Origin: Acidimicrobiia bacterium
Lineage (GTDB): Bacteria > Actinomycetota > Acidimicrobiia > IMCC26256 > PALSA-555
NCBI GenBank assembly: GCA_040881685.1
Contig: JBBECS010000036.1
Location: 260,372-301,845, forward strand
DNA: 41,474 nt
Reading direction: 5' to 3'
Shown here: piece after piece, positions 1-26,512 of the stretch
Layout of the letters: the number at the start of each line of letters is the position of its first letter
Numbering within the stretch: position 1 is the stretch's first letter
Translations under genes and position numbers: made by a program
Notes under the pieces: model-generated
Told to the model about the DNA's origin: nothing
Seen by the model: the letters and a program-made list of their open reading frames with translations, nothing else
The model's database searches: none

Positions 1-50
1 AGCGGAGCCTTGGCCGGATGGCCGGGAAGGCGGAGCGAAGTCGACCCGAG
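1..50 (+). repeat. Dispersed hairpin element, copy 1
   Basis: This sequence matches 26032-26081 with no gaps over about 46 bases. Shared blocks are AGCGGAGCC at 1-9 and GCGAAGTCGACC at 35-46, with the same 34-base offset in both copies. Between them lies a small hairpin, GGCC-GGAT-GGCC at 12-23. The other copy has GCTC-GGAC-GAGC at the same offset, so two base pairs have changed on both sides and pairing is kept. The left edge may be cut by the window. The copy sits directly before aroK, so the ATG at 18 is inside it and is a poor start candidate. Confidence 0.55.
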
Positions 51-53
51 GAG

Positions 54-590
54 ATGAGCGAGGGAGCCCCACGCCATCTCGTGCTGATCGGCCTCATGGG
101 CGCGGGCAAGACAACCGTCGGTGAAGCGTGTGCCGCTCGCCTCGGTCGACCGTTCGTCGACACCGATCAGCTCGTCGAGGCGCAGACCGGTCGGACGGTC
201 GCCGAGATCTTCACGTCCGGTGGTGAGGCCACGTTCCGCGCCCTCGAGAAGCAAGCCGTTGCCGACGCGTGCGCATCACCGCAGCCGCTCGTGATCTCGT
301 GCGGCGGCGGTGCGGTGCTCGACCCGGAAGGCCGGAAGGTGATGTGCGCGTCGGGCATCGTTGTTTGGCTGCGAGCCGCGCCGTCGGTGCTGGCCGCGCG
401 CGTCGCCGACCATCTGCCGGACCGGCCGCTACTACCCGAGACTGGTGCCCAGAAGGAGCTCGAGCGCTTGGCCGAGCTCCGTGCTCCGGCCTATGAAGGG
501 GCCGCGCACGTCACCGTCGACACCGACGGACACAACATCGAGAAGACCGTTGACGCGGTCTTGGCCGAGGTCGCGCGATGCACCGCGTGA
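54..590 (+). CDS. aroK: Shikimate kinase
   Basis: Phosphorylates shikimate with ATP in the cytosolic route to chorismate and aromatic amino acids. Numbered from the ATG at 54 (178 aa), the Walker A loop GLMGAGKTT is at residues 13-21, the substrate-binding pair D36/D38 follows in FVDTDQL, and the GGG shikimate-binding motif is in SCGGGAV. Size is normal for the family. The frame is open back to an ATG at 18, but that codon lies inside a dispersed repeat, and 54 gives the usual short lead before the P-loop. A GAGGAG lies directly against the 54 start, so its spacing is poor and the start is not certain. The 3' end overlaps aroB by 13 bases, implying translational coupling. aroC, the common upstream partner, would lie outside the window. 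Confidence 0.95.
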   Translation: MSEGAPRHLVLIGLMGAGKTTVGEACAARLGRPFVDTDQLVEAQTGRTVAEIFTSGGEATFRALEKQAVADACASPQPLVISCGGGAVLDPEGRKVMCASGIVVWLRAAPSVLAARVADHLPDRPLLPETGAQKELERLAELRAPAYEGAAHVTVDTDGHNIEKTVDAVLAEVARCTA

Positions 591-17347: not shown

Positions 17348-17411
17348 GGTAGGCCGCTGAGCCCGGCGTCCCCGCCCGGCTCGTTCCCCCGAGAATCACG
17401 GGAGTCTCGCA

Positions 17412-17717
17412 ATGCCCGATCGCCGCGCGTCGCTCATGGAGCCGCGAATGGAGCACCTGCTCGAGCGGGTGGACTCGAAGTTCACGCTCGTGACGCTGGC
17501 CGCCATGCGAGCACGCGAGATCAACGACTACTACAACCAGCTCGGCGAGGGCCTCGGCAAGATCGTGCCGCCGCAGGTCACCTCGGTGTCGCGCAAGCCG
17601 CTGACGATCTCGCTCGAGGAGATCGAGGCCGGCAAGATCGAGTCGGCGCCGCTGCCCGAGGAGCCCGAGGCTTCCGAGGGTGAGGCGGCCGACGCCGACG
17701 AGCCCGCGGCGGAGTAG
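17412..17717 (+). CDS. rpoZ: DNA-directed RNA polymerase omega subunit
   Basis: Small subunit that helps fold and hold the beta-prime subunit. The 101-residue protein has the family core LLERVDSKFTLVTLAAMRAREIN near the N terminus (broken here after 20: the motif runs on into DYYNQL). The C-terminal third is Glu/Ala-rich and probably disordered, as in many actinobacteria. The ATG at 17412 has GGGAG at 17400-17404; in-frame ATGs at 17436 and 17448 would give shorter starts nearer the family norm but lack Shine-Dalgarno sequences. Placement between gmk and coaBC is standard. Confidence 0.93.
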   Translation: MPDRRASLMEPRMEHLLERVDSKFTLVTLAAMRAREINDYYNQLGEGLGKIVPPQVTSVSRKPLTISLEEIEAGKIESAPLPEEPEASEGEAADADEPAAE

Positions 17718-24866: not shown

Positions 24867-25532
24867 ATGGTCACGCGCAAGGTTGCACCATCGATCCTGT
24901 CGGCCGACTTCTCGCGCCTCTCGGAGGACATCGAGCGCGTCGCATCCGAAGCCGACCTGCTGCACGTCGACGTGATGGACGGGCACTTCGTGCCCAACCT
25001 GACGATCGGTCCTCCGGTGGTGGCCTCGCTCCGAGCTCGCACTGAGCTCTTCCTCGACTGCCATCTGATGGTGGACAACCCCGGCGTGCTCCTCGCTGAC
25101 TTCGCCGCGGCCGGCGCGAACCGGTGCATCGTGCACATCGAGCTCGGTGATCCGCGCCCGTTGTTCGCAGAGCTCCGCGAGCTCGAGCTCGGAGTCGGTC
25201 TCACGTTGAACCCCGACACCCCGGTCGACACGGTGCTCCCGTTCCTCGCCGAGATCGATCTGCTCCTCGTGATGAGCGTGAACCCAGGCTGGGGCGGACA
25301 GTCGTTCATCCCCGAGGTCCTCGACAAGGTGAGAGCGGCACGACGCGTCATCGACGAGCGCGCGCTGCCGGTGGAGATCGAGATCGACGGCGGCATCCAG
25401 GAGCAGACCGCGCGCCTGGCGGCAGATGCCGGCGTCGACATCCTCGTCGCTGGCAGCGCCATCTTCCATGCCGACGATCCACTCGACGCGGCGCGGCGCA
25501 TTCGCGCGGCCGCGTGGCCGTCGGCGGCCTGA
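24867..25532 (+). CDS. rpe: Ribulose-phosphate 3-epimerase
   Basis: Interconverts ribulose 5-phosphate and xylulose 5-phosphate; ribulose 5-phosphate is also the precursor used by RibB later in this window. The 221-residue TIM barrel has APSILSADF at the N terminus, the metal-binding LLHVDVMDGHFVPN and DCHLMV, the NPGWGGQSF loop, and EIDGGI near the end, all diagnostic. The ATG at 24867 is preceded by GGGGA at about 24859-24863. The next gene starts within its last codons. Confidence 0.95.
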   Translation: MVTRKVAPSILSADFSRLSEDIERVASEADLLHVDVMDGHFVPNLTIGPPVVASLRARTELFLDCHLMVDNPGVLLADFAAAGANRCIVHIELGDPRPLFAELRELELGVGLTLNPDTPVDTVLPFLAEIDLLLVMSVNPGWGGQSFIPEVLDKVRAARRVIDERALPVEIEIDGGIQEQTARLAADAGVDILVAGSAIFHADDPLDAARRIRAAAWPSAA

Positions 25533-26026
25533 GCCGCGTGGCCGGCGCGCTCGCGGCGAAGGTCCTCACGGTCTCCGACGGTGTTGCCGAGGGCTCGCGG
25601 GATGATCGATCCGGCGTGGCCCTCGTCGAGCACCTGGTTGCGGCCGGGTTCGGCGTGGAGCAGCACCGGGTGTGCGCCGACGGCGTCGACTCCGTCGCCG
25701 AGGCGATTCGAGCGCTCGCGACTGGCTTCTCGGGCCTGATCGTCACGACCGGCGGCACCGGGTTCGGACCGCGTGACCTCACGCCCGAGGGCACGCGTCT
25801 CGTGCTCGAGCGAGAAGCGCCGGGGCTGGCGGAGGCCATGCGCATCGCGAGCAACGCGCAAGGCCGCACGTTCGGCCTGTTGTCGAGGGGGGTCTGCGGC
25901 ACGCTCGGCGAGGCCCTCGTCTGCAACCTGCCTGGGTCTGCCTCTGGTGCGGTGGAGTGCCTCGAAGCGGTCCTGCCCGCCGTGCCACACGCCCTCGAGC
26001 TCCTCGCCGGCGCCCGCCCCCACTGA
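25514..26026 (+). CDS. MogA/MoaB-type molybdenum cofactor biosynthesis protein
   Basis: Family members adenylylate molybdopterin before molybdate insertion. The 170-residue protein shows LTVSDG near the start, VTTGGTGFGPRDLTPE in the centre, and LPGSASGAVECLEAVLPAVPHALELL at the end (longer than one motif; key residues are the LPGS turn and the VLPAVPHAL helix). MogA and MoaB cannot be separated by eye. The start is either GTG 25514, overlapping rpe by 19 bases, or GTG 25538 six bases after the rpe stop; the second gives a protein beginning just before ALAAKVLTVSDG. No other molybdenum cofactor gene is nearby. Confidence 0.85.
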   Translation: MAVGGLSRVAGALAAKVLTVSDGVAEGSRDDRSGVALVEHLVAAGFGVEQHRVCADGVDSVAEAIRALATGFSGLIVTTGGTGFGPRDLTPEGTRLVLEREAPGLAEAMRIASNAQGRTFGLLSRGVCGTLGEALVCNLPGSASGAVECLEAVLPAVPHALELLAGARPH

Positions 26027-26031
26027 GACGT

Positions 26032-26081
26032 AGCGGAGCCGTGCTCGGACGAGCGGGACGGCGCCGCGAAGTCGACCACGA
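26032..26081 (+). repeat. Dispersed hairpin element, copy 2
   Basis: Gap-free partner of the element at 1-50. AGCGGAGCC is at 26032-26040, GCTC-GGAC-GAGC at 26043-26054 and GCGAAGTCGACC at 26066-26077. Of nine differences over the first 46 bases, four form two compensatory pairs in the stem. Here it begins six bases after the mogA-like stop and does not encode protein. Confidence 0.6.
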
Positions 26082-26138: not shown

Positions 26139-26159
26139 ACGGGCGACAACTCAAGCGAT

Positions 26160-26320
26160 GCCCTCGGGGTTTGGGTGCAAGTCCCGACCCGGCGGTAGCC
26201 GCCCGGCCACTGGGTCGAGCGGGAGCCCGCGAGCCCACGGCTGCCAACCGTGCGGTTGACCCGGTAGCGGTGTGAGCCGCGAAGCCGGGGCCGACGGTGA
26301 GAGTCCGGATGGGAGAGGGT
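26160..26320 (+). ncRNA. FMN riboswitch (RFN element)
   Basis: A ligand-sensing leader that lowers rib gene expression when FMN binds. The conserved blocks appear in order: CCCTCGGGG, GGGTGCAAGTCCCGACC, CGGCGGTAG, GAGCCCGCGAGCC, GGGGCCGACGGTGAGAGTCC and GGATGGGAGAG. P1 forms between GCCCTC (26160-26165) and GAGGGT (26315-26320). A variable arm (about 26228-26290) is longer than in Bacillus. It precedes ribD by about 190 bases, matching its usual target. Confidence 0.95.
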
Positions 26321-26512
26321 TCGGCGGCGCGGCTCACACCGCGCGCTGCCGCGCCGTGCCCCGTGGGCGGGAAGGGACCGACCCGTGGCAGAGGTGAGCA
26401 GCGAGCCGTGGCCCGAGCGGCCCGGCGCAGGCGGCGGCTTTGCCGACCGCCGGAGCACGGCGCCGGCGCTCGCGACGGCGACCAATGTGGGCGCGAAGCG
26501 CCGAGAGCGGAC
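26321..26512 (+). promoter_or_regulatory. Long riboswitch expression platform before ribD
   Basis: About 190 bases separate the aptamer from ribD. Just after P1 is a perfect 8-bp hairpin, GGCGCGGC (26326-26333) with GCCGCGCC (26348-26355), without a T-run. More GC-rich pairing is possible further on. The ribD frame stays open through this stretch to 26297, but the predicted peptide is Arg-rich and unlike RibD, so I regard it as untranslated. Whether control is by termination or ribosome access is not clear. Confidence 0.5.

Follow-up and report, generated by a model that had tools for sequence, protein, structure and literature searches.

A hairpin repeat of about 57 nt at gene starts in Acidimicrobiia that is probably mobile

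Two copies of a short sequence in a 41,474-nt stretch of Acidimicrobiia DNA (the window) belong to a dispersed family of hairpin elements of about 57 nt. Copies of this family keep a common fold, are missing from many orthologous sites in a congener, lie in frame within protein genes of relatives and share a target signal in the right flank. In the genus they point in the sense direction towards start codons, from which they are separated by one of two classes of spacing. We consider it probable that the element is a mobile repeat that is non-autonomous and depends on its structure, and that can be compared with REP and RPE palindromic elements. Its insertion behaviour makes it likelier that the sequence is a mobile structured repeat than a regulatory motif.

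Two window copies and a scaffold gap

Window positions 1–46 (+ strand; copy A) align without gaps to 26032–26077 and differ from them at exactly nine positions; AGCGGAGCC and GCGAAGTCGACC are the same in both copies, as the original prediction had it. The two compensatory changes it named are also present: pair 13/22 turns from G-C to C-G and pair 14/21 from C-G to T-A. A third, which it missed, affects pair 10/28 (T-A to G-C), and six of the nine differences are these three double changes.

The 46-nt matches are parts of an element of about 57 nt that begins at GAGAYG. Copy B is full length at 26023..26079 (+ strand; C36:286394–286450 on the contig) and scores 78.3 bits with the covariance model described below (E 6.8e-19). 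Its stem 1 pairs 26027–26029 with 26071–26073, the GC/GC helix 26033–26034 with 26066–26067, stem 3 26038–26041 with 26059–26062 and stem 4 26043–26046 with 26051–26054; the GGAC loop occupies 26047–26050, the GGGA 26055–26058 and the GACC foot 26074–26077. Copy A comprises element columns 10–55, its 5′ end having been lost at a scaffold gap. According to the structure obtained with RNAalifold from 16 copies, its GC/GC pairs join 2–3 with 35–36, its outer stem 7–10 with 28–31 and its inner stem 12–15 with 20–23, with a GGAT loop at 16–19, the GGGA bulge at 24–27 and the 3′ foot GTCGACC at 40–46.

The gap consists of 100 N (L006 15273–15372), and the window begins right after it. The contig ends on its two sides show an exact 55-nt identity, which explains why copy A is cut at its 5′ end in the window. 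The full-length aroK-side form, with 5′ GAGACGC, lies at C36:260208–260264, and the copy 155 bp upstream of the window's aroK copy is most likely no second copy but that one counted again. A tandem of two copies 155 bp apart at aroK was rejected on account of the exact contig-end overlap across the gap.

Directly 3′ of copy A lies aroK (shikimate kinase; 54..590, + strand; Pfam SKI, 4.4e-45), whose start codon is 7 nt past the GACC. Both copies had been placed between genes; this needs amending for copy B, which at full length overlaps the end of a MoCF_biosynth-domain gene (CinA/MoaB-like; 25514..26026, + strand; Pfam PF00994, 7.3e-27), the TGA stop codon falling within the first bases of the element. 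Copy B precedes an FMN riboswitch (window 26156–26324; RF00050, 54.2 bits, E 1.6e-11) that is below the gathering score of 66.2 and was missed at the default Rfam threshold. Directly 3′ of the riboswitch is a riboflavin operon that encodes RibD (ORF listed from 26297), a lumazine-binding protein and RibBA. Copy B also precedes ribD and does not adjoin a start codon.

A dispersed family with patchy distribution

The copies' own genome (G000) is a 3.11-Mb Acidimicrobiia MAG of 54 contigs. A 43-nt degenerate pattern, allowing up to 3 mismatches, matched it 17 times and the reversed pattern, used as a control, 0 times; a covariance model built from 14 copies gave 40 matches at E ≤ 5e-9, or 39 without the gap duplicate. 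These counts place the family far beyond chance, and with about 39 copies in its own genome the predicted genome-wide dispersal is borne out.

Extending the covariance-model search to 60 relatives of the same order revealed many further copies. Strong matches occurred in 10 of the 61 genomes, own included, with a patchy distribution and a maximum of 62 matches in G029. Seven genomes of the same taxonomic family as the own genome (genera g2, g4 and g5) had no matches, and none of 395 other Actinomycetota genomes sampled had a match at E ≤ 1e-5. The public records in which the element occurs are of MAGs with the label Acidimicrobiia or Actinomycetota; the isolate names of several point to lakes (Baikal deep water, deep-cast series) and that of one to pasture soil. 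One record is titled Bifidobacterium breve (L142, L143, L124, L133 and L139). Its contigs match G002, from the same genus as the own genome, and it is probably a mislabelled MAG.

A search of 4227 Rfam families, at curated thresholds and at relaxed E-values, returned no match to the element, in agreement with the earlier view that no named element fits. The literature that we searched held no description of an Acidimicrobiia repeat or mobile structured element of this kind.

Covariation supports a conserved fold

Without a supplied structure, RNAalifold folded 16 copies as ....(((...((...(((((((((....))))...)))))...))...)))......, and 7 of the 14 pairs showed double changes. The fold has four helices split by purine-rich internal loops. 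From the outside inwards, the hairpin consists of stem 1 (2–3 bp), a 3×3 GNA/GRA loop, the GC/GC pairs, a second 3×3 purine loop, a 4-bp stem, one nucleotide opposite a GGGA bulge, another 4-bp stem and a GGA(Y) loop. The GGA loop and the GGGA bulge are nearly invariant among copies. Double changes are also visible by eye in ungapped copies, both in one stem (GGCC/GGCC, GCTC/GAGC, GGGC/GCCC and GGTC/GACC) and in another (GAC/GTC, GAT/ATC, GCT/AGC, GGC/GCC and GTC/GAC).

We tested covariation in 60 distinct rows, most of which other families of the order contributed. In this alignment, which was fitted to the covariance model and so leans towards the structure, 98.0% of cells were paired compared with 80.9% after shuffling, 10 of 14 pairs showed changes on both sides and the covariation score was 0.397 versus 0.097, a value that 0 of 500 shuffles reached. 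Sliding the partner by 1–3 columns abolished the covariation (score at most 0.059). Covariation so far above both controls supports the original prediction of a family under selection for its fold, and stem positions seldom vary without pairing, 98% of the cells being standard pairs. Among mismatched cells, G-T outnumbers A-C (24 versus 11), an excess that, judging from sequence, modestly points to the sense strand as the folding strand. An alternative register of the inner stem (22–25 with 32–35), which single-sequence folding prefers in places, was rejected, as covariation links column 22 to 31 and column 23 to 30, and the alternative partners are nearly invariant.

At shared sites, two-sided stem changes have occurred several times and one-sided ones rarely, with double compensatory changes at, for example, aroK, L037/L114, L043/L184 and L045/L105. 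This suggests either that the fold stayed under selection once inserted or that gene conversion or replacement by another copy took place. The changes at shared sites, together with the strong covariation and the almost invariant loop and bulge, also speak for an explanation that we regard as unlikely overall: a cis-acting RNA leader, that is, a protein- or ligand-binding hairpin in 5′ untranslated and intercistronic regions through which a dispersed regulon would be controlled at the level of translation. Binding would then be at the GGA loop and GGGA bulge, and regulation would act on the Shine-Dalgarno (SD)-like GCGGAG of the 3′ strand.

Sense orientation and spacing at start codons

Coding frames were called with a simple codon-usage score for which long ORFs from the window and L005 were the training set. 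The downstream coding frame is sense to the element at 58 of 62 sites of the genus (binomial p about 3e-13), which confirms that copies favour one strand with respect to genes; upstream genes occur in both orientations. Among the four exceptions, L047 (xseB-like) and L051 (rpsQ-like) are also sense on reading the sequences, and some copies in distant genomes may be antisense. Spacing in the genus is bimodal: the start codon follows the GACC foot by 0–7 or by 14–30 nt, and none of the genus copies has it at 8–13 nt. In the shorter class, the element's own GCGGAG is at SD distance from the start, and the longer class has room for a native SD between element and start. A translational role for the element is possible. 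Near-exclusive sense orientation and a start codon within 30 nt of nearly all genus copies are also expected of a functional leader.

By eye, promoter-like −10 sequences (TACGCT, TAGCCT and TAGGCT) can be seen about 10–20 nt upstream of the element at L031, L039, L041/L118, L042, L043 and L044. Given these −10-like sequences, the element may begin near the transcript 5′ end, an arrangement that would again suit a leader.

At L033 (argG), L024 and L045, the insertion turns a native or nearby ATG into the start of a short upstream ORF, the TGA of which overlaps the new start codon. As short ORFs such as these differ in frame between copies, the idea of a conserved leader peptide was dropped.

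Empty sites, flanks and in-gene copies indicate insertion

To compare sites with the congener, three G001 contigs were fetched regardless of whether the element was present at each site. By hand count from the alignments, about 4 of 13 orthologous G000 sites are also occupied in G001, and the rest are empty. L024, L029, L033, L047 and L088 have clean empty orthologous sites, and the genes are intact in G001 where the element is absent. At argG (L033), the element breaks the fourth-codon region, and its end provides a new in-frame start. Such limited sharing argues against a leader, as does the absence of a functional theme among the downstream genes, which encode shikimate kinase, argininosuccinate synthase (argG), ClpP, an ATP synthase delta subunit (atpH-like), an SRP GTPase (ftsY-like), RecG, HisI (PRA-CH), thiolases, enoyl-CoA hydratase and others. 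The hallmark of a regulon, the same genes across species, was thus not found, either in the sites common within the genus or in gene function.

The left and right flanks of copies are more alike than shuffled pairs (z 5.8). This likeness keeps to one register (shift 7; z 4.5 once arrays and doubtful cases are left out), and a match of at least 5 of 7 positions occurs at 16 sites versus 4.7 expected. Target-site duplication, as known from MITEs, is therefore present but clear at only about a sixth of sites. The right flank carries GG at +10/+11 at 43 of 96 sites (45%), against a background of 8.5%. Most in-gene sites also have this GG, which argues that it is not merely an SD signal.

Copies also form head-to-tail tandem arrays with spacers of 7–12 nt, occur between two tRNA genes in G014 and G029, and lie in frame in at least seven protein genes of relatives. 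The in-frame insertions, of about 20 residues, are in conserved enzymes: in methylmalonyl-CoA mutase, the element adds 21 residues that are not in the human enzyme, and an acyl-CoA dehydrogenase match is split at the element. Residence of a palindromic repeat in frame in unrelated protein genes, which defines RPE, is seen here for a minority of copies only.

Copies within coding sequences and between tRNA genes are further evidence against a leader. Copy B, placed before a riboswitch and away from a start codon, fits it no better, and CsrA, the obvious reader of a GGA loop, is absent from G000, G001, G002, G003 and G012.

Related repeats share an end module

The own genome contains a second repeat family of about 120 nt, with roughly 25 copies that are mostly 5′ of genes. 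It has the core GGAGACGGAGCCTGCGGAGTCGACC and the end GAGCGAGCGCGACC (L091–L101, L217, L219–L222, L224, L229, L231, L232 and L234). A third, tandem type, GAGCGAAGCGTCCGCGGGACGGGTACCCCGGCCCGTAGCGGAGCGACCC, is found in L005 near 17400–17650 (counted on the − strand), where it is combined with the ~120-nt family upstream of one gene. Both families appear to have an end module in common with the 57-nt element (GA-stem-GNA-GC ... GC-GRA-stem-GACC), which suggests, at the level of sequence, a common recognition signal. Covariance-model matches of 28 nt were rejected as copies of the 57-nt element, as they are the centre of a different, larger repeat.

A more far-reaching idea is that the element spreads through its folded RNA or sense strand aimed at ribosome-binding sites, by neither a Y1 transposase nor an RVT_1-type reverse transcriptase, that its copies are portable translation-initiation modules, and that the ~120-nt and L005 families run on the same machinery. 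We rate this as decidedly doubtful.

Candidate mobilising enzymes

All clear in-frame coding insertions are sense-oriented and, with the bias across the genus, this would be accounted for by retro-element type spread, in which a folded RNA is inserted or copied via an RNA intermediate. Such spread is very improbable: RVT_1 proteins are absent from G001, G014 and G029, which include the two genomes with most copies, an asymmetric purine target can also give orientation, and the possible antisense copies in distant genomes do not fit.

A REP-type palindrome moved by a Y1 (IS200/IS605-like) transposase, as in a REPtron or RAYT system, would match the small dispersed hairpin, the dozens of copies, the conserved short foot (GGAG) and the CC-rich unpaired tail, but has hardly any likelihood left, as the Y1 transposase (PF01797) is missing from every strongly positive genome, several of them at least 95% complete and with positive controls, which removes mobilisation by a resident enzyme of this type. 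Nor does the foot, NGGAG/NTGAG, carry an unpaired GTAG or CGTC tag; the GACG in the element belongs to stem 1 and the first loop. Flank duplications are present and, to our knowledge, the IS200/IS605 mechanism makes none. We found no terminal inverted repeats beyond the 2–3 bp of stem 1, and no longer element with these ends among the 3′-foot matches examined.

Discussion

If the element is a mobile repeat, as we favour, a single strand would fold into the hairpin, and this fold would probably be what a mobilising enzyme or RNP recognises. New element lineages would therefore keep the fold while the sequence of the stems drifts. The target would be short and rich in purines, with GG (or GA) about 10–11 nt from the 3′ foot of the element, and insertion there would duplicate roughly 7–9 nt. 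On the sense strand, SD sequences and starts of the form ATGG/ATGA match such a target, and sense copies would therefore accumulate at translation initiation regions. Survivors would be those that keep translation, either with the native SD between element and start (14–30 nt) or, in the 0–7 nt class, with the element's own GCGGAG serving as SD; in-frame copies within proteins would be tolerated.

In these Actinomycetota, which are uncultured and come from fresh water and soil, a structured repeat has apparently been able to settle at the 5′ ends of housekeeping genes, in a single orientation, and persist. How small palindromic repeats move without a dedicated enzyme becomes a testable question here, given insertion in sense only where translation starts, two classes of spacing and the absence of a known transposase.

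Several known systems resemble the element in part. Leaders bound by CsrA/RsmA also have a hairpin close to the start codon with GGA in its loop; the GGA spacing and the in-gene copies of the element do not fit them, and CsrA is absent from the genus and from G012. The small dispersed repeats (SDR) of cyanobacteria are very small mobile repeats in which stem changes keep pairing. By this general description, the likeness lies in tiny mobile repeats with pairing-preserving stem changes, whereas size, sequence and host differ.

GTAG REPs and REPINs with RAYT are likewise dispersed short hairpins in tens of copies, some of them intragenic, with stems that vary while pairing is kept (PMC3733652, PMC3116915). 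By contrast, genomes with the element have no Y1 transposase, the element has no GTAG tag and a sense bias at gene starts, and its arrays are head-to-tail rather than head–head dimers.

The closest kind is that of Rickettsia palindromic elements (RPE), including CGTC-type REPs, a resemblance of kind only, drawn from their descriptions (PMC3733652, PMC10969869). Like the element, these are short palindromic repeats with several families per genome and heterogeneous stems made of complementary residues, and RPE insert in frame in unrelated protein genes (PMC10969869). CGTC-type REPs have CC-rich tails, comparable to the CC(A)-rich unpaired tail of the element, may sit inside genes and have no dedicated transposase, as none is known for the element; how they move without one has been stated as an open point (PMC3733652). 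REPs lie mostly downstream of genes (PMC3733652). The element differs from RPE and CGTC REPs in its 57 nt with conserved purine 3×3 loops and a GGGA bulge, its lack of a CGTC tag, its duplicated flanks and its sense orientation at translation starts, rather than a position mostly 3′ of genes.
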